Source of the DNA: Bradyrhizobium sp. NP1
Lineage (GTDB): Bacteria > Pseudomonadota > Alphaproteobacteria > Rhizobiales > Xanthobacteraceae
Reading direction: 5' to 3'
Length of the DNA: 64,000 nt
Assembly (NCBI RefSeq): GCF_030378205.1
Contig: NZ_CP127385.1
Coordinates: 2,210,001-2,274,000 of the forward strand
Part shown: piece by piece, positions 22,234-61,204 of the stretch
Layout of the letters: each line of letters starts with the position of its first letter
Numbering within the stretch: position 1 is the stretch's first letter
Position numbers and translations under genes: made by a program
Notes under the pieces: model-generated
Databases searched by the model: none
What the model was told of the DNA's origin: nothing
Seen by the model: the letters and a program-made list of their open reading frames with translations, nothing else

Positions 22234-23848
22234 TGCTTACGCCGACGCCGTGCAGTCGTTCCGCTGGAGCGCCATCCACGAGGCGCTCGGTTGGAAGCCG
22301 GGCGAGAAGGTTTCGCTCGGCCATTCCATCGTTGATCGCCACGCGCAAAGCGGGCGTGTCGCGCTGATCGCGGTCGGCAGGGGCGGGCGCGAGCGGCGTT
22401 TCACGTACCAGGACCTTTCGGAAGCGAGCAACCGCTTCGCCAATCTCTTGACGCGGCTTGGCGTCAGGGCCGGCGATCGCGTCGCTGGATTGATGCCGCG
22501 TGGCGTCGACGTGCTGGTCACGATCATCGGCACGCTGAAGGTCGGCGCGATCTACGTGCCCGTCTTCACCGGCTTCGGCTCGGACGCGATCCGCTTCCGT
22601 CTCGATCATTGCGCGGCGAAAGTCCTCGTCACGCACCACGCGGTGAAGGGACACCTGCCTGATGGCATCACGGCGCAGGTGATTTGTGTCGCTGGCGAGG
22701 ACGCGGCGCTGCCTTCGGGCTGGATCGATTTTCATCGCGCGCTGCGGGCGGAGGCTGCGGAATTCGCCGCGGTGCCTTGCGACCGCGGCGACATCGCCGC
22801 GCTGATCTACACCTCCGGTTCGACCGGTCCGCCGAAGGGTGGCGCGATCGCGGTGAATTTTCTCGGCGCGATCTGGCCCTACATGGTCTATGGCCTCGAC
22901 TTCCGTCCCGATGACGTGTTCTGGCCGACCGGCGATCCCGGCTGGGGTTATGGCTTCGTGTGCTATCTCGGCGCACTGGCGGCAGGCGGCACCGTGGTCT
23001 CGGTCGAGGAGAATCCGTCCGCGGAGCTCTGTCTCGCCATCCTCGAGCGCTATCGCGTCACCAACCTCGCCACCACGCCGACGCTGTTGCGCAGCCTGCT
23101 GGTGCTGGACGAGGACGCGCTCAGCCGCGCGTCGATCGCCTTGCGGGCGATATCGAGCTGCGGCGAGCCGCTCAATGCCAAGGTCGTCGACGCCTTCCAC
23201 CGGCTCTGGAATCTGACACCGATGGATCATTTCGGCGCCACCGAATTCGCGATCCCGATCGGCAATTTCAACGCCATCGCGATGCCGGTGAAGGCGGGCT
23301 CGATGGGCCGGCCGTTTCCCGGCTTCCGCATGGCCATCATCGACGAGACCGGCCGCGAGCTGCCGGCCGGCGAGGTCGGCCTGATCGGCAAGAAACCCGA
23401 TCCGGATTGCCTTTATTGGTCGAACTACTGGAACGATCCGGCGGCCACGCGCGAGCTGGTCCACAACGGCTGGATTGCGACCGGCGATCTCGGCCGCAAG
23501 GACGGCGAGGGCTATTTCTGGTTCGAGGGCCGCGCCGGCGACATGATCAAGAGCGCCGGCTATCGCATCGGCCCGTTCGAGATCGAGAGCGCGCTGCTGA
23601 AGCACCCGGCCGTGGCGGAGGCCGCCGTCGTCGGCAAGCCGGACGAGCTGCGCGGCGAGATCGTGAAGGCCTTCGTGGTGCTGCGGCCGGGCATCTCCGG
23701 CAGCGATGAATTGTCCGAAGCGCTGGTCCGCCTCGTCAAGGATATGGTGGGCCGCCACCAATATCCGCGCCTGATCGAATATGTCGATGCCTTGCCGAAG
23801 ACCGAGACCGGCAAGATCCAGCGTTTTGCCTTGCGTGCACGCCCTTGA
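22223..23848 (+). CDS. Acyl-CoA synthetase (AMP-forming)
   Basis: ANL-superfamily ligase of 541 residues that activates a carboxylic acid with ATP and CoA. Motifs include YTSGSTGPPKGG (P-loop-like), DHFGATE, the hinge region ATGDLGRKDGEGYFWFEGR, and the C-terminal catalytic Lys in KTETGKIQR. The overall look (PGWGYG, FWPTGDPGW) is that of short or medium chain acyl-CoA synthetases. The substrate is unknown. Confidence 0.9.
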   Translation: MPPDAYADAVQSFRWSAIHEALGWKPGEKVSLGHSIVDRHAQSGRVALIAVGRGGRERRFTYQDLSEASNRFANLLTRLGVRAGDRVAGLMPRGVDVLVTIIGTLKVGAIYVPVFTGFGSDAIRFRLDHCAAKVLVTHHAVKGHLPDGITAQVICVAGEDAALPSGWIDFHRALRAEAAEFAAVPCDRGDIAALIYTSGSTGPPKGGAIAVNFLGAIWPYMVYGLDFRPDDVFWPTGDPGWGYGFVCYLGALAAGGTVVSVEENPSAELCLAILERYRVTNLATTPTLLRSLLVLDEDALSRASIALRAISSCGEPLNAKVVDAFHRLWNLTPMDHFGATEFAIPIGNFNAIAMPVKAGSMGRPFPGFRMAIIDETGRELPAGEVGLIGKKPDPDCLYWSNYWNDPAATRELVHNGWIATGDLGRKDGEGYFWFEGRAGDMIKSAGYRIGPFEIESALLKHPAVAEAAVVGKPDELRGEIVKAFVVLRPGISGSDELSEALVRLVKDMVGRHQYPRLIEYVDALPKTETGKIQRFALRARP

Positions 23849-23859
23849 AGGAGACAGCG

Positions 23860-24249
23860 ATGGCGACCTATCAGCCGATTTTCCCGAACGACAAATGGCC
23901 CGCGCGGTATACGTTCTCACCGGCGGTGCGCGTCGGCAACCTGATCTTCCTGTCGGGCACCACCGGCACCGACGATGCCGGCAATATCGTCGGCCCCGGC
24001 GACATCGTGGCGCAGACGAGGCGCATCTTCGAGAAATTCGAGTTGATCCTGAAAAGCGCCGGCGCAAGCCTTGCCAACATCGTCGAGACCACGGACTACT
24101 TTCTGTCGCTCGAGGACTACAACAAGACCGCGGCGCTGCGCCGCGAGCTGTTCAAGGGACCGCCGTGGCCCGCCGCGACCGGCGTCGTCGTCAGCGGCCT
24201 CATTCGCGAGGGCGCCCTGATCGAGATCAAGGGCATCGCGGCGGTGTAG
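23860..24249 (+). CDS. Rid-family protein lacking the catalytic Arg
   Basis: A 129-residue YjgF/RidA-fold protein with FLSGTTGTDDAGNIVG and a C-terminal IEIKGIAAV. The site where RidA has its catalytic Arg (PARS) reads PAAT (residues 104-107), so A106 replaces Arg. Known Rid subfamilies without this Arg do not hydrolyse imines. Its place between the CoA ligase and the permeases suggests a pathway-specific role. GAAGGAG precedes ATG 23860. Confidence 0.85.
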   Translation: MATYQPIFPNDKWPARYTFSPAVRVGNLIFLSGTTGTDDAGNIVGPGDIVAQTRRIFEKFELILKSAGASLANIVETTDYFLSLEDYNKTAALRRELFKGPPWPAATGVVVSGLIREGALIEIKGIAAV

Positions 24250-24255
24250 GGCGAA

Positions 24256-25122
24256 ATGCTTGCGCAGGTCCTGGTCAGTTCGGCGACGGCGGGCGCGGTC
24301 TACGCGCTGATCGCGCTCGGCTTCGTGCTGATCCACAAGGGCACCGGCGTTGTTCACTTCGGCTATGGCGACCAGGTGACGTTCGGCGCCTATCTCGCGC
24401 TGATGGCGCAGGTCCTGATCGGCCTGCCGTTCTGGGCTTCGGTGATTGCGGCGCTGCTGCTGTCGGTGCTGATGGGCGCGGTGATCTATGGCGGCTTCAT
24501 GTGGCCGCTGCGCAATGCATCGCTGTTGTCGCGGATCATCGCGAGTCTGGCGCTCGGCACCGTGATGCGCGAATTCCTGCGCGCCTATATGGGGCCGAAC
24601 GCCTGGCCGTTCCCGTTCCTGCTATCGCAGACCTCGGTCCCGGTCGGCGGAATCCTGGTGGTGCCGGCCAATCTCGCGATTGTCGGCGTCTCGGTGCTCG
24701 TGCTTGGCCTGCTGTTCCTGCTGTTCGAGAAGACCGTCTACGGTAAGGCGATCATGGCGGCCTGCGACAACCAGGTCGGAGCCAGCATCGTCGGCATCCG
24801 CGTGTCCCAGGTGTTCCTGATGATCTGGGTGATCGCCTCGGTGCTCGCGACCGTGGCAGGCATCTTGGTCGCGCCGGTGCTCACGCTGTCGCCCGACATG
24901 GGCCTGATCGGCATCAAGGGTTTTACGGCGGCGGTGCTCGGCGGCTTCAACAGCCTGGCCGGCGCGGTCTGCGGCGGCATCCTGCTCGGCGTTCTCGAAG
25001 CACTCGGCGGCACCTATGTGTCGACCGCGCTGAAGGACATGATCAGCTACGGCATCCTGATCGCGATCATCCTGGCGCGTCCGCAAGGTCTGCTCGGTGT
25101 GCTCGCGATCAAGAAGGTGTAA
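24256..25122 (+). CDS. LivH-type ABC permease
   Basis: Inner-membrane permease of 288 residues with about eight hydrophobic helices and the LivH loop motif GGFNSLAGAVCGGILLGVLEALGG. It pairs with the LivM-type gene that starts 4 bp after its stop codon. Confidence 0.9.
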   Translation: MLAQVLVSSATAGAVYALIALGFVLIHKGTGVVHFGYGDQVTFGAYLALMAQVLIGLPFWASVIAALLLSVLMGAVIYGGFMWPLRNASLLSRIIASLALGTVMREFLRAYMGPNAWPFPFLLSQTSVPVGGILVVPANLAIVGVSVLVLGLLFLLFEKTVYGKAIMAACDNQVGASIVGIRVSQVFLMIWVIASVLATVAGILVAPVLTLSPDMGLIGIKGFTAAVLGGFNSLAGAVCGGILLGVLEALGGTYVSTALKDMISYGILIAIILARPQGLLGVLAIKKV

Positions 25123-46068: not shown

Positions 46069-46073
46069 TGGGA

Positions 46074-46540
46074 GGTGGTCCGATTCTAACATTCGCATCC
46101 CATCTGGGAGGCACGTTTGCGAATGTTAGAATCGCAGGACCACCAGCAAGTTATTGATGCTGGTGGAGCTTTGGATTTGACGTTCGCATGAGGAGCCGCG
46201 GCAGATGGCAGCGAACGTCAAATCCGCTCCACCAGGTGGTCCGATTCTGACATTCGCATCCCATCTGGGAGGCACGTTTGCGAATGTTAGAATCGCAGGA
46301 CCACCAGCAAGTTATTGATGCTGGTGGAGCTTTGGATTTGACGTTCGCATGAGGAGCCGCGGCAGATGCTAGCGAACGTCAAATTCGGTGGTCATCCATT
46401 CGCATCCCATCTGGGAGGCACGTTTGCGAATGTTAAATCGCAGGACCACCAGCAAGTTATTGATGCTGGTGGAGCTTTGGATTTGACGTTCGCATGAGGA
46501 GCCGCGGCAGATGCTAGCGAACGTCAAATCCGCTCCACCA
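46074..46540. repeat. Three tandem copies of a bipartite hairpin element
   Basis: Copies span 46074-46234, 46235-46386 and 46387-46540. Each full unit holds hairpin 1 (outer arms GGTGGTCC/GGACCACC; inner arm ends TTCGCA/TGCGAA; 20-nt loop), the linker AGCAAGTTAT, and hairpin 2 (outer arms TGGTGGAG/CTCCACCA; inner GGATTTGACGTTCGC/GCGAACGTCAAATCC). In copy 1 both stems are nearly perfect. Copy 2 lacks the 3' outer arm of hairpin 2, and copy 3 has lost part of the hairpin 1 left arm. A variant lies at 55637-55801. No coding frame is preserved. Confidence 0.92.
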
Positions 46541-46562
46541 GTGGCGGCACGGGAGAATCGGC

Positions 46563-48023
46563 ATGGCTGAAAAATTCTCGCGCAGGCAATTTGCGAGCCT
46601 TGCCGGGCTGTCGGTCGCGGCGCTGGCGGCAGGACCGCTGAGGGCGCAGGACAGTGGGGGGCTGTCGCGCGGGGCGGCCAGCTTTCCCTCCGGCTTCATC
46701 TGGGGCACGGCCACCTCGGCCTATCAGATCGAAGGCGCGGTCAAGGAGGACGGCCGCGGTCCGTCGATCTGGGACGTTTTCAGCCACACCCCCGGCAAGA
46801 TCGCCGACCGCAGCAATGCCGATCGCGCCAACGACCACTACCACCGCTACAAGGAGGACGTCGGCCTGATCCGCGACCTCGGCGCCAGGGCCTATCGCTT
46901 CTCGATCGCCTGGCCGCGGGTGTTTCCGGAAGGCAAGGGCAAGCCGAACCCCAAGGGGCTCGACTTCTACAACCGCCTGCTCGACGAGCTGCTGGCAAGC
47001 GGCATCGAGCCCTTCGCCACCCTTTATCACTGGGACCTGCCGCAGGCGCTGCAGGACCGCGTCGGCGGCTGGCAGTCGGTCGAGACCTCGAAAGCCTTCG
47101 CCGATTATGCCGGCTATGTGGCCGAACGGTTGAGCGATCGCGTCAAATCCTTCTTCACCGTCAACGAGGCGGGCCGCTTCGTGAATTTCGGCTATGGCTG
47201 GGGCATCGATGCGCCGGGGCTGAAGCTCGCGCCGGCACTGCTCAACCAGGTCCGTCACAACGTCGCGCTGGGCCATGGGCTTGCCGTGCAGGCGATCCGT
47301 GCCAAAGCGCGCCCGGGCACCCGCGTCGGGCTGGCCGAGAACATCGCGGCCTGCCTGCCTGCGATCGACACGCCCGAGAACATTGCCGCGACCGAGATCG
47401 CGACGCGCGAGCTCAATGCCGGGCTGCTCAACGTCATCCTGACCGGCCAATATACCGAGCATTTCCTCGCCTATGCCGGCAAGGACGCGCCGAAATACAC
47501 CGCCGACGAGCTGCGGATCATCGGCTCGCCGATCGATTTCGTCGGCCTCAATATCTACGCGCCGCAATATTACATCGTCGCGTCCGACAAGGTGCCGGGT
47601 TTCACCGTGCTGCCGTTTCCCTCCTCCTTTCCCCGCATGAATTCGGATTGGCTGCGCATCGGCCCGGAAACCGCCTATTGGGTGCCGCGGATCGCCGCCA
47701 AGATCTGGAACACCGGCACGATCTACATCAGCGAGAACGGCGCCTCCGCCGACGACAAGGTCTCGCCCGACGGCCACATCTACGATCTCGACCGCATCAT
47801 GTTCCTGCGCAACTATCTCGTGCAGTTGCAGCGCGCGATCACCGACGGCGCGCCGGTGCGCGGCTATTTCCTCTGGAGCCTGATGGACAATTTCGAGTGG
47901 ATCTACGGTTTCGGCAAGCGGTTCGGCGTCTACCGGGTCGACTTCGACACGCTGGTCCGCACCCCCAAGCTCAGCGTCGCCTTTTACCGCAACGTGATCG
48001 CGCGCAACGCGGTCGAGGCGTAG
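46563..48023 (+). CDS. Exported GH1 beta-glucosidase
   Basis: A 486-residue GH1 enzyme with a Tat signal peptide (SRRQFASLAGLSVAALAAGPLRA). Catalytic residues are E202 (TVNEAG; the usual NEP has Ala in place of Pro) and nucleophile E391 (YISENGA). GFIWGTATSAYQIEGA and YHWDLPQAL are typical. The ATG lies 22 bp after the hairpin repeat. Together with the GH16 enzyme it could degrade beta-glucan outside the cytoplasm. Confidence 0.9.
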   Translation: MAEKFSRRQFASLAGLSVAALAAGPLRAQDSGGLSRGAASFPSGFIWGTATSAYQIEGAVKEDGRGPSIWDVFSHTPGKIADRSNADRANDHYHRYKEDVGLIRDLGARAYRFSIAWPRVFPEGKGKPNPKGLDFYNRLLDELLASGIEPFATLYHWDLPQALQDRVGGWQSVETSKAFADYAGYVAERLSDRVKSFFTVNEAGRFVNFGYGWGIDAPGLKLAPALLNQVRHNVALGHGLAVQAIRAKARPGTRVGLAENIAACLPAIDTPENIAATEIATRELNAGLLNVILTGQYTEHFLAYAGKDAPKYTADELRIIGSPIDFVGLNIYAPQYYIVASDKVPGFTVLPFPSSFPRMNSDWLRIGPETAYWVPRIAAKIWNTGTIYISENGASADDKVSPDGHIYDLDRIMFLRNYLVQLQRAITDGAPVRGYFLWSLMDNFEWIYGFGKRFGVYRVDFDTLVRTPKLSVAFYRNVIARNAVEA

Positions 48024-48187
48024 GCTTCGCGTCGGCAGGTTTGCGCCAGCCCAAGGCGTGCCGTCCGGTCGAGGTGAGCAGATTGCGCGATCAGATCGCA
48101 AAAAGTGCCAGATTTGGGGTAAACCTCGTCCGGCAAACGATCGCGGCGGCTCCGTTGGGCCGGCCGATAGTTGAGTGAGGCCGATCG

Positions 48188-49438
48188 ATGCCCAAACCCG
48201 ACAAGACCAGCAAGAAGAACAGCATCAAGGCGCTGCTCCCGGCGCTCATCATCATGGCCGGCTCGGTTCTGTCCGGCGCACCGGCCACGGCCGAGGACCA
48301 GGCCGAATCCGCCGACGAGATCCGCATCGGCAATGTGATGCCCTATACCGGGCCCCTGGCGGCGTTTTCGAGCATCGGAAAGGCCGAAGCGGCCTATTTC
48401 GACATGGTCAACGAGCATGGCGGCATCAATGGCCGCAAGGTCAGGTTCGTTTCCTATGACGACAGCTCCGATCCGGAGGCGGCACGCGAGAAGACGCGCA
48501 AGCTGGTCGAGGCCGACCAGGTGCTGCTGGTGTTCGGTTCGTTCGGCACGCCGGGCAACCTGGCCGTGCGGCCCTACCTGAACGAGCACAAGGTCCCGCA
48601 GCTTTTCCTCGCTTCCGGCGACGAGGAATGGAGCAAGCCGAAGGCGTTCCCCTACACCATGGGCTGGCAGCCGGCATTCCGCGCCGAGGGCCGGATCTAC
48701 GCCAATTACATCCAGGCCTCCTATCCTGAGCGCAAGATCGCGGTGCTCTGGCAGAACGATCAGTTCGGCCGTGATCTGTTCCGCGGATTGCAGGAGGGGC
48801 TCGGCGACTGGGCGCGGATGATCGTTTCCGATATCGCCTTCGACCTCTCCGACAAGTCGATCGATACCCAGATCGACCTGCTCAAGGACTCCGGCGCGGA
48901 AATCCTGCTGTTCGATGGCGCCCCGGCGGTCGCGGCGCTGGCGATCCGCCGGATGGCGGAGATCGACTGGCACCCGGTATTCCTGCTCGACAACACCTCG
49001 GCCTCGATTGCGAACGCGCTGCGCCCGGCCGGGCTGGAGAATTCGATCGGCGTGATCTCGACCAGCTTTCTCAAGAATCCCGGCGATCCCGCCTGGAACG
49101 ACGATGCCGGCATGAAGCAATGGTCCGACTTCATGGACAAATACTTTCCCGACGGGAACAAGGAGGACGGCAACGCGCTGTTCGGCTATGCCGCCGCCGA
49201 GACGCTGCATCAGGTGCTGAAGCAGTGCGGCAACGACCTCTCGCGCGAGAATGTGATGCGGCAGGCCGCCTCGCTGAAGGAGTTCCGCAGCGCGATCCTG
49301 CTGCCGGGCATTGCCATCAACACCGGGCCGGAGGATTTCCGCCCCATCCAGCAGATGCGGCTGGTGCAATTCGACGGCAGCACCTGGCAGCCGATCGGCG
49401 ACACGCTCGAGAGCGCCTTCGTCGACGCCCCGAAGTAG
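48188..49438 (+). CDS. LIV-type ABC substrate-binding protein (orphan)
   Basis: A 416-residue Peripla_BP_6 protein with an N-terminal signal (SIKALLPALIIMAGSVLSGAPATA) preceded by a Lys-rich start. The mature fold begins IRIGNVMPYTGPLAAFS. No permease or ATPase gene is next to it, so it must use a distant transporter or act as a sensor. Substrate unknown. Confidence 0.87.
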   Translation: MPKPDKTSKKNSIKALLPALIIMAGSVLSGAPATAEDQAESADEIRIGNVMPYTGPLAAFSSIGKAEAAYFDMVNEHGGINGRKVRFVSYDDSSDPEAAREKTRKLVEADQVLLVFGSFGTPGNLAVRPYLNEHKVPQLFLASGDEEWSKPKAFPYTMGWQPAFRAEGRIYANYIQASYPERKIAVLWQNDQFGRDLFRGLQEGLGDWARMIVSDIAFDLSDKSIDTQIDLLKDSGAEILLFDGAPAVAALAIRRMAEIDWHPVFLLDNTSASIANALRPAGLENSIGVISTSFLKNPGDPAWNDDAGMKQWSDFMDKYFPDGNKEDGNALFGYAAAETLHQVLKQCGNDLSRENVMRQAASLKEFRSAILLPGIAINTGPEDFRPIQQMRLVQFDGSTWQPIGDTLESAFVDAPK

Positions 49439-49485
49439 CGCTGCGACGTAACACACCGCAGCGCTGCTCTGGCACTGTCCGGCCT

Positions 49486-50706
49486 TCACTGCGATGCGAG
49501 CGCGCAGCCGCCTTCGCTCAAGGCCCGGAACGCCTGTTCGCCGGGGGTCGACGCAAGCACCTTGTAAAGGTCCCAGGGGCCCTTGGACTCGCTGCGCGAC
49601 TTCACCTGAAACAGGTAGGCGGGCGGCAGGTTGCGGCCGTCGACGCGGATTTTTCCCTTGCCGAACAGTTTGTCGTCGGTCGGGATTTCCTTCATTTTGG
49701 CAACGACCTTGGCGCCGTCCTTGACGTCGCCGTTGAGCGCGACCACAGCCTTCAGATAATGCAGCACGACGGCGTAGACGCCGGCCTGCGGCATGGTGGG
49801 AACGGCCGCGTTCTTCATGCGTTGGGCGAACCGCGCGGAGAAAGCCCGCGTGTCGTCATTGAGATCCCAGTAGAAGGTTTCGGTGAGGTTCAATCCTTGC
49901 CCGGCCTCGAGCCCGAGCGCGCGCACGTCGGGCAGGAACATCAGGAGCGCCGCGATCTTCTGGCCCGACCGGGTGAGGCCGAATTCGGCTGCCTGCTTGA
50001 TCGCATTGGTGGCATCGCCCCCGGCATTGGCGAAGCCGATCACCTTGGCGCCCGAGGATTGCGCCTGCAGCAGGTAAGACGAGAAGTCCGACGTGTTGAG
50101 CGGATGGCGGACGTGGCCGATCACCTTGCCGCCGGCCTTTTCCACCGCCGCCGTCGTGTCGCGCTCCAGCGCAGCACCGAAGGCGTAGTCGGCCGTGATG
50201 AAGAACCAGCTGTCGCCTCCCGCCTTGGTGATCGCGGTCCCCGTGCTGTTGGCAAGCGCGTAGGTGTCGTAGGTCCAGTGGACGGTATTGGGCGTGCAGG
50301 CGCTGCCGGTGAGGTCGGAGGTGCCGCCGCTCGCGACCAGCGCCAGCTTGTTCTTGGCTTTCATGAGCTGGTTGACGGCGAGCGCGACGCCCGAACTGCC
50401 GAGGCCCGTGATCGCGTCGACCCCGTCCTCGTCAACCCACTTGCGCGCGATGTTGACGCCGACGTCGGGCTTGTTCTGATGATCGGCGGCGACGATCTCG
50501 ATCTTCCAGCCTTTCGCTGCAAGTCCGGAATCCTCGACCGCCATTTGCGCCGCCAGCGTCGAGCCGGCGCCGGTGGCGTCGGCGTAGAGGCCCGACTGGT
50601 CCTCCAGCACGCCGATCTTGATGGCCCTGGTTTGCGCGCCGGCCCCGGTCGCGCCGAAGCCGACCGCGCAGGCGACAAGATACGCCGAGATCCTGTTGAT
50701 CCTCAT
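49486..50706 (-). CDS. LIV-type ABC substrate-binding protein
   Basis: A 406-residue Peripla_BP_6 protein (signal MRINRISAYLVACAVGFGATGAGA, then IKIGVLEDQSGLYAD). It overlaps by 4 bp the DHDPS-family gene read before it, placing it in an operon with a DHDPS-family protein and an enolase-superfamily enzyme, which points to a sugar-acid-like ligand. GGAGG precedes the ATG. Permease genes are not present here. Confidence 0.87.
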   Translation of the reverse strand: MRINRISAYLVACAVGFGATGAGAQTRAIKIGVLEDQSGLYADATGAGSTLAAQMAVEDSGLAAKGWKIEIVAADHQNKPDVGVNIARKWVDEDGVDAITGLGSSGVALAVNQLMKAKNKLALVASGGTSDLTGSACTPNTVHWTYDTYALANSTGTAITKAGGDSWFFITADYAFGAALERDTTAAVEKAGGKVIGHVRHPLNTSDFSSYLLQAQSSGAKVIGFANAGGDATNAIKQAAEFGLTRSGQKIAALLMFLPDVRALGLEAGQGLNLTETFYWDLNDDTRAFSARFAQRMKNAAVPTMPQAGVYAVVLHYLKAVVALNGDVKDGAKVVAKMKEIPTDDKLFGKGKIRVDGRNLPPAYLFQVKSRSESKGPWDLYKVLASTPGEQAFRALSEGGCALASQ

Positions 50707-51650
50707 CGCCGTCCTCCAGCGCTGGCGCGTGCCGTCGCCGCCTGCTCTTGCGGGGCCGCCCCGGCGAGCCCGTCGAGAATGGCCGTGAGGGCGACGCGGT
50801 CCTGCTCGCCAAGTAGGCGCATCGGCCGCCGCGGCGGGCCGACCGGCCGGCCCATGAGGCCGAGGCCGGTATGGGCGACGCGGATATGGGATTTGGCGCA
50901 GATGAATTCGCAAATCGGGAACAGCTCGTCCCACAGCGTTTGCGCCGCAGCCGCGTCACGCCTCCTGGTCGCGGTCTCGAAGAACGCCATCGCCTTCCTT
51001 GGCGCGAAATTGCTGCAGACCGGCGCCCATCCGCGTGCGCCGGCGCTGAAGGCCTGCAGGCTGGTCGATTCCCAGCCGGCGATCAGGGTGACCTTGTCGT
51101 CCGTCAGCGCCCGGATGGCGCTGATCCGGGAGAGGTCGCCGGTGCTTTCCTTGATGCAGTTGACATTGTCGAGCTGTGCCAGCCTCGCCAGGAAATCCGG
51201 CTTCATGTCGACGCCGGTCGTCCACGGGTTGTTGTAGACGCAGATCGGAATGTTCACGGCGCGAGCGACCTGCTCGTAATGGGCGAACACTTCGTCCACC
51301 GTGAGCGGCCAGTAGGAGACCGGCAGCACCATGATGCCGTCGCAGCCCACGTCCTGCGCGTGGCGGGAGAGGGCGATGCAGCCACTCGTGGTTCGCGCGC
51401 CCGTGCCCGCGATGACCGAAAGCCGTCCGGCGGCATGCTTGACCGCAAGCCTGGTCGCAGCCTTCATCTCCTCGTCGGTGAACGAACCGTTGCCGCCGGT
51501 GCTGCCGAACACGCAGATGCCGTCGACGCCGTGCTCGGCCTGATAGTCGATCTCCTCGCACAGGCGCTTCTCGTCGATCCGCTCGCCATCCTCGCTTGTC
51601 GGCGTCGGAAGAAAGGTGAAAACGCGCGCCCAGAAGTTTTCCTTGTTCAT
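50703..51650 (-). CDS. DHDPS/N-acetylneuraminate lyase family protein
   Basis: A 315-residue TIM-barrel lyase or dehydratase. Signs are GSTGGNGSFTDEE, the Tyr in YNNPWTTG and the Schiff-base Lys in NCIKESTGD. Possible roles include 5-dehydro-4-deoxyglucarate dehydratase or a 2-keto-3-deoxy acid aldolase, as suggested by the enolase-superfamily neighbour. GAGGAGC precedes the ATG. It is 23 bp downstream of the enolase-family gene. Confidence 0.85.
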   Translation of the reverse strand: MNKENFWARVFTFLPTPTSEDGERIDEKRLCEEIDYQAEHGVDGICVFGSTGGNGSFTDEEMKAATRLAVKHAAGRLSVIAGTGARTTSGCIALSRHAQDVGCDGIMVLPVSYWPLTVDEVFAHYEQVARAVNIPICVYNNPWTTGVDMKPDFLARLAQLDNVNCIKESTGDLSRISAIRALTDDKVTLIAGWESTSLQAFSAGARGWAPVCSNFAPRKAMAFFETATRRRDAAAAQTLWDELFPICEFICAKSHIRVAHTGLGLMGRPVGPPRRPMRLLGEQDRVALTAILDGLAGAAPQEQAATARASAGGRR

Positions 51651-51673
51651 TGTGCTCCTCCCAATGTTGATCT

Positions 51674-52858
51674 TCATTGCAGCGGCAAACGCCGGTACTG
51701 GCCAGGATTGTCCGGATCGCGGAAGTAGTTGTAGGGACCCTCTCGCAGGAACCGCTCGTGGCAGCGCGCCAGGCGCGACTGCGACAGCGTGACGCCGAGC
51801 CCATGTCCTTCCGGCACCGCGACCATATTGTTCTTCGGATTGAACGGGCCTTCCTCGATCACGTCGTCGGACTGCCAGTGCAGGATGCATTGGCCGGGCT
51901 CGGTGACCGATGGCGTCGCCGCCATCAGGTGCAGATAGGCCGATATGCCGATGCCGGTCTCGCCGCTGAAGCACCACCAGCCGATGTTCATCCGCTCGCA
52001 CGCCGCGATGAATTTCACCGCGCGCGCAATGCCGCCAAGCACCGCGAGGTTGGTGACGAAGAAATCGGGCACGCCGAGCCGCACCGCCTTCTGCACGTCG
52101 ACGGTGTGAGTCGAGAACGAGATCCCGCTGTGCTGGCGCAGCTTCGCCATGTTCTCCAGCGTCGCGACCGGGTCTTCGTAATTGCGCACGTTATAGGGCG
52201 CGATCTCGGCCAGGATCCGCCGCGCCGTCGGCACCGACCACGACATGTTGCCGTCGAGCCGGAGCAACGCGTCGTCGCCGATCGCGGCGCGAATGGCCTT
52301 CACCGAGCGGATTTCGAGCGCTGGATCGCCGAGCTGCAGCTTGCCTTCGAACATCGTCGATCCGTGCTCGCTCTTCATCCGCGCGCAGTAGTCGGCGATT
52401 TCGCCTGCGGTTCGCTCGCCGCCGATCTCGCCGCGGCGCTGGCGGAAGGCAAAATATTCGGCGAAGGCGATCTGCTTGCGGAAGGCGCCGCCGAGCAGCA
52501 TGTAGAGCGGCTGACGGAACGCCTTGCCCTTGATGTCCCAGAGCGCGATCTCGATGCCGCCGAACGCGCGCAGCAGCGTGCTGTCGCCGGTGTTCGGCAT
52601 CACCTGCAGATCGGGGACGCAGGCGCGCTCGCAGGCCAAAAGGTCGAGCGGATCGCGTCCGGCCAGCGCCGGACCGAGCACCTCGTTGATGACGGGGGCG
52701 CATTCGGGGGAGGGTGCTTCGCCCAGCCCCGAGATGCCTTCGTCGGTTGAGACCTCGACGATGACCTTGGTGTCGCCCGGATAGACGCCCACGCCGAACA
52801 GGAAGGGGACCTGGAGCGGAATATTCACGGGCGTCGCCTTAACCCCCGTAATTTTCAT
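51674..52858 (-). CDS. Enolase-superfamily (mandelate racemase/glucarate dehydratase-like) protein
   Basis: A 394-residue protein with the N-terminal capping domain (MKITGVKATPVNIPLQ) and a modified barrel. Metal-ligand motifs RLDGNMSW and YEDP are present. The K-x-K catalytic motif reads KLQ, and the segment aligned with the His of glucarate dehydratase (CHSN) reads CFSGE. Thus the usual acid/base residues look altered. It is the first gene of the three-gene operon ending at 49486 and is divergent from the GntR gene. Confidence 0.82.
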   Translation of the reverse strand: MKITGVKATPVNIPLQVPFLFGVGVYPGDTKVIVEVSTDEGISGLGEAPSPECAPVINEVLGPALAGRDPLDLLACERACVPDLQVMPNTGDSTLLRAFGGIEIALWDIKGKAFRQPLYMLLGGAFRKQIAFAEYFAFRQRRGEIGGERTAGEIADYCARMKSEHGSTMFEGKLQLGDPALEIRSVKAIRAAIGDDALLRLDGNMSWSVPTARRILAEIAPYNVRNYEDPVATLENMAKLRQHSGISFSTHTVDVQKAVRLGVPDFFVTNLAVLGGIARAVKFIAACERMNIGWWCFSGETGIGISAYLHLMAATPSVTEPGQCILHWQSDDVIEEGPFNPKNNMVAVPEGHGLGVTLSQSRLARCHERFLREGPYNYFRDPDNPGQYRRLPLQ

Positions 52859-52903
52859 CCGTTTCCGCTCCCCGGCTCCTCAATCGAGCGGATCAAAGCA
52901 CAA

Positions 52904-52936
52904 GTCAGGCTGTCTGACAAGCAGATAGCATGCTAT
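52904..52936. promoter_or_regulatory. Two palindromes between divergent enolase-family and GntR genes
   Basis: GTCAG-GCTGT-CTGAC (52904-52918) and the perfect ATAGCATGCTAT (52925-52936) lie about 50-60 bp from both starts. They are candidate operators of the adjacent GntR-family regulator; the first resembles the GT-x-AC style of FadR-type sites. Confidence 0.45.
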
Positions 52937-52993
52937 GAGATAGCCGGACCGTTGCCAGAATCGCCGGGGCTTCGTAGTGCTCGGGAGGCGGAT

Positions 52994-53731
52994 TTGAACG
53001 AGATGCCGAAATTACTGTCGCCGAACGCCTCCCTGCCGCGCGTGGCCAAGACGTCCCTGGTGGATGAAGTGATCGCCGCGATGCGCGGCATGCTCGGCAA
53101 GGAGGCCTGGGCTCCCGGCAGCAAGCTGCCCTCGGAGCAGGAACTGAGCCGGCAACTTGGCGTCGGCCGCTCCACCGTGCGCGAGGCCCTGCGTGTGCTC
53201 GGTCATCTCGGGCTTGTGGAGTCGCGCAGCGGCCTTGGGACCTATGTGATCGACCGCGGCATGCCGCAGGGCCGCATCGCGGCGACCCAGAGCGCGGATG
53301 CGCTGATCGAGCTCTACGAATTCCGCAAGGCGATCGAGATTCCCGCCGCCCGGCAGGCGGCCGAGCGGCACAGCGCGGCCCAGATGGCGCGCATCAAGTC
53401 GGCCTGGACCGATTGCGAGCGCGCGGTGAAGCGGAACAGCGCCGACGAGTTCGCGCAGCTCGACTATCAGTTCCATTTCGCGATCGTGCTTGCCGGCGGC
53501 AACCGCTTCGCGATCGAGGCCTATCGCGGCATCGAGGAGTCCTTTGCGCGCAACGTGACCATGATCCTGGGCCAGGGACAGTTGCGCAGCATGCTGCATT
53601 TTCACGACGATCTGATCGACGCGATCGACCGGCGCGACGCCGAGGCTGCCGAGCGCGAGGCAAGAGAAAATTTCGTCGAAACCGACGTGCGGCTGAAGCT
53701 CTTGCTTCAGGGCGATGCGAACGCGCGGTAG
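52994..53731 (+). CDS. GntR-family regulator (FadR/FCD subfamily)
   Basis: A regulator of about 245 residues. Winged helix (about 15-85): SKLPSEQELSRQLGVGRSTVREALRVL. FCD domain (about 105-235) with metal-type His residues (YQFHFAIV, MLHFHDDLIDAI). TTG 52994 lies five bases after GGGAGG; ATG 53003 is the alternative. It is divergent from the enolase-family operon and is probably its repressor. Confidence 0.86.
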   Translation: MNEMPKLLSPNASLPRVAKTSLVDEVIAAMRGMLGKEAWAPGSKLPSEQELSRQLGVGRSTVREALRVLGHLGLVESRSGLGTYVIDRGMPQGRIAATQSADALIELYEFRKAIEIPAARQAAERHSAAQMARIKSAWTDCERAVKRNSADEFAQLDYQFHFAIVLAGGNRFAIEAYRGIEESFARNVTMILGQGQLRSMLHFHDDLIDAIDRRDAEAAEREARENFVETDVRLKLLLQGDANAR

Positions 53732-53903
53732 ATCCGCCGCGGTTTAGGCCCGCCGCCGACGCGCAGGCATTTGTTGCGCTGCGATAGTCGTCGCATGATG
53801 TCCGATTGCAACCCCATGCCGTCGATCGCGATTTATCTGGCGGGACGTTCGATCCCGTATCAAGATAGTTGCCCGCGTTTGCATCGATCGTTTGGAGGCT
53901 CAT

Positions 53904-55640
53904 ATGGAAAGCACCCCCCTGCCGAACGATCCGTCCGCCTATCTTCAGCACCTGATGGAGGTCGGCGAGCAGTCGATGAAACAGTTCGACGATGCCGTGG
54001 CCGCGGCGATGGGTGTCGCCAACGGCGAGCCGACCAACGGGAAGGGGTTTTCGCCGGTCGCCTTCATGGCCGACATGCAGCGCGACTACTTCACCCAGGT
54101 CTGGCGCTTCTGGAACGCGGCTTTCGTGAGGGCGCTGACGTTCGGCGCGGACGCCAGGGTTCAGCCTGCGCGCAGCGACAAGCGCTTCAAGGACGAGGCC
54201 TGGGCCGAGACGCCCTATTACGACCTGCTCAAGCAGTCCTATCTGCTCGCGTCAAAGCAGCTGTCGGAGTATGTCGAGAACGCCCAGGTCGACGAGCGCT
54301 CCAAGCTGCAGCTTCGCTTCTATGCCCGGCAGTTCATCGACGCGATGAGCCCGTCGAATTTTCCCGCCACCAACCCCGACGTCATCCGCACCGCGATCAA
54401 GACCCGCGCCGCGAGCCTCGCCACCGGCATGCAGAATTTCATCGACGATGTCCGCAAGGGACGGATCACGCGCGTCGACGAATCCGCCTTCGAGGTCGGC
54501 GGCAATCTCGCCAACACGCCGGGCGCGGTGATCTACGAGAACGAGCTGATCCAGCTCATCGAGTACACGCCGCAGACCGCGGAGGTGGAGAAGACGCCGC
54601 TTCTGATCGTGCCGCCCTGCATCAACAAGTATTACCTGCTCGATCTCGGCAAGGGAAACTCGTTGGTCGAATATGCCGTCGCCCAGGGCCATCACGTGTT
54701 CCTGATCTCCTGGCGCAGCGCGGTGCCGGAGATCGGCCATCTCAGCTGGGACGACTACCTGACGCTCGGGCCGATCAAGGCCATCGACGTCGTGCGCGAC
54801 ATCGCAGGCGTCGATCGCGTTCATGCGCTCGGCTTCTGCGTCGGCGGCACGATCCTGAGCTGCGCGGCCGCGGTGCTCGCGGCGCGCGGGGAGGACAAAT
54901 TCGTCACCATGACGCTTCTGACCACCATGCTCGATTTTTCCGATCCCGGCGAGATCGGCCTCCTGATCGACGACGCCTCGATCGCGCTGCGCGAAGCGAC
55001 GATCGGGCGCGGCGGCATCCTGCCCGGCAAGGAGCTCGCCTTCACCTTCGGCACGCTGCGCGCCAACGACCTGATCTGGCGCTATGTGGTCGACAGCTAT
55101 TTGAAGGGCGCATCGCCCGACGCCTTCGATCTGCTGTATTGGGATTCCGACAGCGTCAGCCTGCCGGGGCCGATGTATTGCTGGTACACCCGCAACGCGT
55201 ACTTGCGGAACATCCTGCGCGAGCCCGGCAAGACCACGCAATGCGGGGTGCCGGTCGATCTTTCCGCGGTGAAGGTGCCGCTCTACGTGCTGGCCTCGCG
55301 CGAGGACCATATCGTGCCCTGGAGGAGCGCGTTCCGCTCCAAGGACCTCATGGGCAAGGAGCCGCGTTTCGTGCTGGCGGCGAGCGGCCATGTCGCCGGC
55401 GTCATCAATCCGCCCGCCAAGAAGAAACGCAGCCACTGGCTCAACGACGATCTCAGCAGTGACGCCGAGGGCTGGCTCGCGAAAGCGCAGGAAAGGCCGG
55501 GAAGCTGGTGGCCGGACTGGGATGCCTGGATGAAGCGCCATTCTGCCGGCACCATTCCAGCGCCGACGCAGCCCGGCAATGCGAGCTACCGGACCATCGA
55601 GCCGGCGCCGGGCCGCTACGTCAAGCAGAAATCGAACTAG
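53904..55640 (+). CDS. phaC: Class I poly(3-hydroxyalkanoate) synthase PhaC
   Basis: A 578-residue synthase that polymerises (R)-3-hydroxyacyl-CoA into storage granules. The lipase-like box G-F-C312-V-G-G carries the catalytic Cys, with Asp in SREDHIVP and His in SGHVAGV. The N-terminal PhaC domain (about 90-260) is intact and length is typical. GGAGG precedes ATG 53904. No phaR, phaA or phaB gene is adjacent. The hairpin element at 55637 begins on the stop codon. Confidence 0.94.
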   Translation: MESTPLPNDPSAYLQHLMEVGEQSMKQFDDAVAAAMGVANGEPTNGKGFSPVAFMADMQRDYFTQVWRFWNAAFVRALTFGADARVQPARSDKRFKDEAWAETPYYDLLKQSYLLASKQLSEYVENAQVDERSKLQLRFYARQFIDAMSPSNFPATNPDVIRTAIKTRAASLATGMQNFIDDVRKGRITRVDESAFEVGGNLANTPGAVIYENELIQLIEYTPQTAEVEKTPLLIVPPCINKYYLLDLGKGNSLVEYAVAQGHHVFLISWRSAVPEIGHLSWDDYLTLGPIKAIDVVRDIAGVDRVHALGFCVGGTILSCAAAVLAARGEDKFVTMTLLTTMLDFSDPGEIGLLIDDASIALREATIGRGGILPGKELAFTFGTLRANDLIWRYVVDSYLKGASPDAFDLLYWDSDSVSLPGPMYCWYTRNAYLRNILREPGKTTQCGVPVDLSAVKVPLYVLASREDHIVPWRSAFRSKDLMGKEPRFVLAASGHVAGVINPPAKKKRSHWLNDDLSSDAEGWLAKAQERPGSWWPDWDAWMKRHSAGTIPAPTQPGNASYRTIEPAPGRYVKQKSN

Positions 55641-55801
55641 TGTCTCGATTCCGAAGTTCGCATCATTCTGCGGGTCCCTCGTTTGCGAACTTCGGAATCG
55701 AAGGACACTAGCAACTTATCACACTAGTGTGGCTTTGGTTCAGAAGTCCGCATGACGAACTCGCAGCGACAATGATGCGGACTTCTGAACCGCCACACTA
55801 G
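55637..55801. repeat. Variant copy of the bipartite hairpin element
   Basis: Hairpin 1 (55637-55711): outer CTAGTGTC/GACACTAG and 17-bp inner stem ending TTCGCA/TGCGAA. Linker CAACTTATCA. Hairpin 2 (55724-55801): outer CTAGTGTGGC/GCCACACTAG and 17-bp inner stem GGTTCAGAAGTCCGCAT with its exact complement. Layout, linker (AGCAA-TTAT) and loop borders match the copies at 46074-46540, but about half the stem bases differ, each with a matching change on the partner arm. The phaC stop codon is inside the first outer arm. Confidence 0.9.
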
Positions 55802-61178: not shown

Positions 61179-61204
61179 GCTAGTGGAAACCACTAGCTTT
61201 TCTT
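61179..61204 (+). terminator. Terminator after the M20 peptidase gene
   Basis: GCTAGTGG-AAA-CCACTAGC, a perfect 8-bp stem with a 3-nt loop, followed by TTTTCTT. Confidence 0.85.

Follow-up and report, generated by a model that had tools for sequence, protein, structure and literature searches.

What kind of repeat differs in stem sequence from one locus to another while its partner arms change to match? Two loci in a 64,000-nucleotide (nt) stretch of the Bradyrhizobium sp. NP1 genome (NZ_CP127385.1, positions 2,210,001 to 2,274,000; hereafter the window) raise this question, and we conclude that both are copies of a 165-nt non-coding mobile element built from two back-to-back hairpins, present once at 55637-55801 (copy B) and as three tandem diverged copies at 46072-46541 (copies A1 to A3). 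Comparison of end sequences makes it very probable that the element is a non-autonomous miniature inverted-repeat transposable element (MITE) of an IS630-family (Tc1/mariner superfamily) insertion sequence (IS). As a kind, a MITE of IS630 is already known; a literature search of titles and abstract beginnings returned no IS630 MITE with hairpin ends and none spread across alphaproteobacteria.

Every copy has the order hairpin X, linker, hairpin Y, where Y is the relative of X in inverse orientation; aligned with the reverse complement of Y, X reads CTAGTGT-CC-CGATTC-CGAAG-TTCGCA against CTAGTGT-GG-CGGTTC-AGAAG-TCCGCA, and the inner arm of each carries a bulge of AA or AAA. In copy B, hairpin X (55637-55711, plus strand, 75 nt; 84.1 bits with R1, our covariance model of a single hairpin) and hairpin Y (55724-55801, minus strand, 78 nt; 91.0 bits) flank the 12-nt linker CAACTTATCACA (55712-55723), and the inverted repeats are near-perfect, with 18/18 nt matching in X (55645-55662/55684-55701) and 17/17 nt in Y (55737-55753/55775-55791). 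X has GANTC on both arms (GATTC/GAATC) and an AA bulge on the inner arm; Y is GANTC-free and has a TTT bulge on its inner arm. The element starts with CTAG (55637-55640, plus strand), whose TAG is the stop codon of the open reading frame (ORF) at 53892-55640, and ends with another CTAG (55798-55801). Across the family the hairpins are mostly 74-79 nt long and CTAG-ended, and the linker is mostly 12-14 nt (78 of the 86 X-Y pairs that have both hairpins among the rows of our alignments A3 and A4). The longest stop-free stretch within the 165 nt of copy B is 38 codons, compared with 366 residues for an IS630 transposase (P0001, below), and the element therefore contains no transposase gene of its own.

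The evidence for IS630 comes from the ends. ISs of this family on Bradyrhizobium and Roseomonas plasmids, with CTAGTGTCCYGA..AAGTTCGC-like ends, match the 26-nt X arm of the element: i) the right end of a Roseomonas mucosa IS, CTAGTGTCCCGAATCCGAAGTTCGCG, matches at 24 positions (25/26 in X arms of the L025 type of copy), the left end of this IS not having been identified; ii) the two ends of an IS from Bradyrhizobium sp. CB82, CTAGTGTCCCGAGTCACAAGTTCGCA/CTAGTGTCCTGAACCAGAAGTTCGCA, match at 23 and 22; iii) those of a B. guangxiense IS match at 22 and 21; and iv) a B. barranii IS has an X-like left end, which matches at 22, and a Y-like right end, CTAGTGTGGTGGACCAGAAGTTCGCG, whose match is to the Y arm (21/26). 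Over all 16 IS ends compared, the matches amount to 17-24/26 for X and 13-21/26 for Y; among 305 control 26-mers anchored on CTAG outside detected elements (drawn from the window and 400 kb of the NP1 genome) matches to X or Y reach 15 at most, with a median of 9. An earlier control set (435 26-mers) was not yet free of elements and IS ends, 24 of its members matching X at 18 or more positions; 26-mers near detected hairpins were removed to give the set of 305. In one element-rich genome (G261) the IS630 transposase gene itself runs into arm sequence, so that the terminal TAG serves as its stop codon; the protein (P0001, 366 residues) matches the IS630 model NF033545 at 259 bits, and also DDE_3. 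The DNA of this IS has plasmid relatives in 608 records, and 15 of 20 plasmid IS loci (all except L385, L412, L417, L418, and L420) have both ends at 16 or more of 24 matching positions, a count for which TA had to occupy positions 2-3 at each end. Ends of the CTAGTGTCC type are also found in IS copies from Streptomyces, Corynebacterium, Pseudomonas, and Cupriavidus, so this type of end is probably old.

The insertion site points the same way, since terminal repeats together with a CTAG target indicate an IS630-family transposase. For one copy elsewhere in the NP1 genome (L010) we searched 265 genomes and read the loci of the 29 best-matching relatives of the same genus: the joined flanks align without net length change in 24 of the 29, and the empty site in register is CTAG in 13 and TTAG or CTAA in 9 (together 22/29), which fits insertion of this copy at TA or CTAG with duplication. 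In NP1 the flanking forward and reverse frames at L010 (240 and 283 codons, with high GC content at third codon positions) both stop at the terminal TAGs of the element; since TAG can be read from CTAG on either strand, an element that inserts at a stop codon preserves the stops of both neighbors. CTAG is about tenfold rarer in the window than base composition predicts (21 observed, 6 of them inside elements, against 210 expected), and the gene beside copy B ends in AACTAG in one relative and AATTAG in another, with no element after either. Of the element ends starting with CTAG, 42 of 175 supply through their TAG an in-register stop to a coding-like frame, compared with 93 of 772 other CTAGs (the count leaves out 43 of 232 ends that do not start with CTAG, and 14 with short flanks); CTAG targeting thus accounts for much of the association with stop codons. 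TA within CTAG is the published target preference of IS630, as stated in the title of Tenzen and Ohtsubo 1991 (via PMC2170065).

We wish to stress that several observations weigh against descent from IS630. The arms at the first locus of the window match IS ends at only 10-17/26, and the end of the G261 IS matches two MITEs of its own genome at 20/26 for left ends and only 15/26, the control maximum, for right ends. No IS630 (DDE_3) match was found in the NP1 genome or in the element-rich genomes G189, G317, and G208, DDE_3 being present in two of the six element-rich genomes tested, G261 among them; IS630 was in fact first set aside because DDE_3 was missing in 4/6, and it came back into consideration when a search for the terminal arm was made in 88 transposase loci. 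It must therefore be assumed that IS630 came and went in these lineages. Nor do IS ends by themselves predict hairpin ends: an inner inverted copy matches at 12-16/26 positions at the 16 IS ends, as against 24-26 at three MITE ends, the hairpin ends of the element going beyond anything in the ISs examined. As to the target, a single clean empty site was read, at which site length differs in five of the 29 relatives and two more lack CTAG, TTAG, or CTAA in register, and duplication of TA and of CTAG are not separable.

Taking these points into account, we infer that an IS630 transposase is the mobilizer. The outer arms would be the terminal inverted repeats of a transposon, the left end resembling X and the right end Y; an IS630, perhaps plasmid-borne, would provide the transposase, which would cut at the ends of the element and insert it at CTAG, so that either side is bordered by CTAG; and each end would at some point have gained an inverted copy of itself, with a bulge of 2-3 nt, so that the end folds as a hairpin. 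The inner arms may then be matched because one arm templates the other, or because the hairpin is needed in mobilization.

That the fold matters was the core of the original prediction, which had described one two-hairpin layout at both loci and held that the covarying stems imply a folded form that is selected or copied. The layout is indeed there, as are the differing five nucleotides between CGATTC and TTCGCA (TAACA at one locus, CGAAG at the other), with re-matched partner arms. Folding z-scores are -11.0 and -10.4 (200 shuffles each), no shuffle being equally stable. In an alignment of 53 of 66 hairpins from the NP1 genome (A2, made with MAFFT and not fitted to structure), 94.9% of stem cells are paired and 143 are changed on both sides, compared with 83.9% and 48 in shuffles; in a second alignment from other taxa (A3, the best 150 of 437 R1 matches from 79 loci, 142 of them distinct, which is fitted to structure and thus favors well-paired hairpins), 97.1% of cells are paired against 85.4%, two-sided changes number 393 against 123, and 20 of 25 pairs have changed on both sides. 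None of 500 shuffles of either alignment attains the observed values. The difference between the X and Y classes accounts for part of the two-sided changes in both alignments, and changes also occur within classes (C-G to A-T or T-A, and T-A to A-T), and intermediates are few. Next to the bulge, the way gaps were placed leaves one or two pairs less sharply defined, with 38 non-standard cells at pair 8-85 in A3 and 17 at pair 9-75 in A2. Further copies exist, with compensation far above shuffles, which supports the reading of covarying stems in a genome-wide mobile repeat whose fold is selected or copied at some step. Within the NP1 genome, though, 60 hairpins compared with the X and Y consensus show more one-sided changes (83) than two-sided paired cells (28, in 15 distinct states).

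The one-sided changes bear on where the fold would act. They divide into 28 G-T, 29 A-C, and 26 of other types, so there is no G-U bias, and they fall equally on outer (40) and inner (43) arms. Inserted copies thus decay without the wobble bias of an RNA, while the source lineages keep their arms matched. A quite improbable alternative is that a folded RNA is selected at each site, as a stabilizer in the 3′ untranslated region (UTR), a terminator, or a small RNA: the folds are strong, many copies abut stop codons (the 42/175 CTAG ends above), and the 3′-UTR repeats Br-REP1/2 have been published from Bradyrhizobium (PMC5082802), but selection on RNA sits poorly with unbiased changes spread equally over both arms, and with a stop-codon excess that is no more than twofold. 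Rfam gave no match at gathering score within the window, and at seven further loci the sole family overlapping the element is the animal microRNA mir-276, well below threshold (27 bits against a cut-off of 62, at L107). We read the matched arms instead as a sign that mobilization, at the DNA level, requires the hairpin or passes through it in a copying step; template copying from arm to arm would yield the same covariation pattern. One Y hairpin (L027) has its loop in reverse orientation to the rest of the family, on an intact stem, as expected if a hairpin extrudes and is resolved.

In an even 400-kb sample of the NP1 genome, 18 places carry hairpins, 31 in total on the best strand; 13 of these places have an X-Y pair and 5 a lone hairpin. 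This suggests about 350 places in 7.71 Mb; the copy number is probably in the hundreds. A blastn search of the same genome with copy B, in which 40 of 134 candidates were scored, gave at least 40 places at 127 bits or more, including two partial ones, and R1 gave at least 150 matches (150 of 4748 candidates scored, one hairpin being listed on both strands). Within the genus, 150 candidates scored in each of six genomes gave 149 matches in G189, 136 in G168, and 13 in G074, and no element in G114, G024, or G007; at least 23 of 195 genomes, NP1 included, have an element match among the matches listed. Across the class, at least 15 of 240 sampled genomes (NP1 included) and at least 12 of 203 genera carry elements, a lower bound given strict filters and 20 candidates scored per genome; in both this survey and the six-genome counts one hairpin can count on both strands. 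A search with the arm pattern added at least 120 stretches inside and outside the genus, in Caulobacter ginsengisoli, Phenylobacterium, Hyphomicrobium, Terasakiella, Nitrobacter, Bradyrhizobium pachyrhizi, and many metagenome-assembled genomes (MAGs) of Xanthobacteraceae; R1 was applied to 113 of these 120 loci (the others being L105, L111, L112, L133, L192, L204, and L212). The distribution is thus patchy within the genus and scattered across alphaproteobacteria. No plasmid or phage copy of the element was matched by blastn at 1e-5, a search that may leave out near relatives.

Some of these copies are unusual. The WHTP01 contigs of a Hyphomicrobiales MAG (Dino_bin40; for example L162, L179, and L208) carry very dense copies beside ordinary-looking genes, with three elements in about 2.4 kb at L162. 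One genome (G250, locus L224) has short near-palindromic sequences of 52-64 nt that are related to the hairpin and score alike on the two strands. In Acidobacteria MAG contigs (L201:6173-6304 and L111) a CTAGTGTCCCGAGTC end adjoins another repeat, CTGTCATCCTGAGCGAAG, and these sequences may represent a separate element that arose independently within the same IS630 group. A 96-nt version at L100:5767-5862 retains two outer arms without inner arms, with CTAG still at both sides, and positions 61180-61196 of the window, CTAGTGGAAACCACTAG, resemble a collapsed copy with only outer arms and the AAA bulge.

R1 recovered both loci of the window and nothing further below E = 0.7. At the first locus the copies are spaced 161 and 145 nt apart, copy 2 being 97% and copy 3 71% identical to copy 1. 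Copy A1 comprises hairpin X at 46072-46146 (plus strand, 58.0 bits), with the outermost arm altered to GAGGTGG, and hairpin Y at 46160-46235 (minus strand, 80.5 bits); copy A2 comprises X at 46233-46307 (plus strand, 63.0 bits) and a Y that has lost its outer end, at 46321-46390 (minus strand; 39.8 bits over 46330-46387, model positions 10-67); and copy A3 comprises X at 46379-46452 (plus strand), which has a broken 5′ arm, overlaps the A2 Y remnant, and was placed by alignment, there being no separate R1 match, and Y at 46466-46541 (minus strand, 78.3 bits). The outer arm CTGGTGG/CCACCAG, earlier ascribed to this locus as a whole, is present in hairpin Y of A1, whereas the left arm of X is intact in none of the three copies (GAGGTGG, CAGGTGG, and broken in copy 3).

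Could another transposase have moved the element? Members of the IS5 and IS701 families also duplicate CTAG or YTAR. A precedent is MITEPsy1, which has a CTAG or YTAA target and is probably derived from the IS5 group (PMC3189936). A MITE of such a CTAG/YTAR-targeting transposase, rather than of IS630, is nonetheless highly improbable: across ten element-carrying genomes IS701 (DDE_5) is absent from all ten, DUF772 (IS5/IS1182 group) from six, and DUF4096 (IS5/IS427 group) from four. Of the 88 transposase loci scanned, many of which end at contig ends and some of which are repeats of one IS, three contain the terminal arm: L298 has an IS630 end, L351 has whole elements beside a remnant of an IS5, which is truncated, and L380 has an arm in the locus of a DUF4096 gene. 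We also considered a transposase gene between closely spaced elements; seven of eight such regions gave coding-like frames, apparently of ordinary genes (ORFs of at least 100 codons, judged by eye without a family search). An attC/integron reading was likewise considered but not adopted.

Least likely of all, and extremely unlikely in our view, is a repetitive extragenic palindromic (REP) or bacterial interspersed mosaic element (BIME) moved by a REP-associated tyrosine transposase (RAYT; Y1 HUH) acting on single-stranded hairpins. The original prediction had likened the element to REP/BIME, and the paired inverse hairpins, bulged stems, and high copy number speak for this reading, but the following points speak against it: i) the element hairpins, mostly of 74-79 nt with CTAG ends, are unlike palindromes of 20-40 nt with a GTAG or CGTC tag, and its units of 75-78 nt lack the tags of the REP families in the available text of PMC3733652; ii) NP1 does hold two RAYT-like Y1_Tnp genes (L031 and L032, at 1466708-1467004 and 5441865-5442161 of its genome), but each of these is bracketed by a different repeat that starts with GTAG (GTAGGGTGGGCAAAGC at one flank, GTGGGCACGCTTCGC at the opposite one), and neither R1 nor the arm scan detects the element in their 3.3-kb loci; and iii) in a search of 13 other genomes, ten of them with elements, Y1_Tnp is present in four of the ten carriers but absent from six (G189, G074, G208, G334, G290, and G341; six of 11 with NP1 added), and present in two of the three in which R1 found no element (G114 and G007). 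The two NP1 genes and their bracketing repeats are apparently a REP-RAYT pair unrelated to the twin-hairpin element. The presence of RAYT, IS701, DUF772, or DUF4096 thus does not track the element across genomes, and each was rejected as mobilizer.

GANTC, the CcrM site, occurs on both arms of exactly one hairpin in 77 of the 86 X-Y pairs, of both hairpins in none, and of neither in nine; among 15 IS copies with clear ends it is found at exactly one end in 7/9 alphaproteobacterial copies and 0/6 others. Dam sites time the mobility of IS10 and IS50 to replication. We regard the pattern as a lead toward CcrM control, the count being post hoc and made on related sequences.

The findings give a patchy alphaproteobacterial repeat a likely mobilizer, a target rule (CTAG, a rare sequence that in some cases provides a stop codon), and a way to explain its bursts; they also provide a natural set of many long compensated palindromes in which to ask whether arms are matched by selection or by arm-to-arm copying. 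The closest known systems include IS630-family ISs, for example the 1.21-kb IS of the B. barranii plasmid pBb1S5a (NZ_CP096256.1, about 23769-24982), which resembles the element in its terminal repeats ending in CTAG (CTAA at the left end of the IS), equal spacing of the AAGTTCGC blocks, an X-like left and Y-like right end, and GANTC at one end; unlike the element, it encodes a transposase and its ends are not hairpins. RUP, the IS630-Spn1 MITE of Streptococcus pneumoniae, is likewise small, and its terminal repeats and TA-containing target correspond to those of an IS630-type element, but it is 107 bp long with a 9-bp terminal repeat, and the available text of PMC2229807 describes no two-hairpin design for it. 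The GTAG and CGTC REP families and Br-REP1/Br-REP2 are also many-copy palindromic repeats in Bradyrhizobium, and differ, as far as the accessible parts of PMC3733652 and PMC5082802 describe them, in their short units, other sequence, and other tags; the GTAG class is tied to tyrosine transposases, while CGTC repeats are not (PMC3733652). CIR of Caulobacter, Brucella, and other alphaproteobacteria, which we compared by description only, is intergenic and also has two inverted-repeat arms and a linker, with GANTC in one arm and 5′-TA-3′ at the termini; it differs in length (about 110 bp, versus 165 nt) and in having GANTC at or near the terminal loop, where the element has it in the stem (PMC2229807 for CIR). 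From the two-arm layout and GANTC, CIR and the element may be kin. More tentatively, and on balance doubtfully, CIR (perhaps with RIME and Bru-RS) and the element could form one class of hairpin-ended IS630-derived MITEs in which a one-ended CcrM site times mobility to replication. According to PMC2229807, more information is needed on how CIR moves, and the part played by its GANTC site is undetermined; comparison with the twin-hairpin element makes both questions testable.

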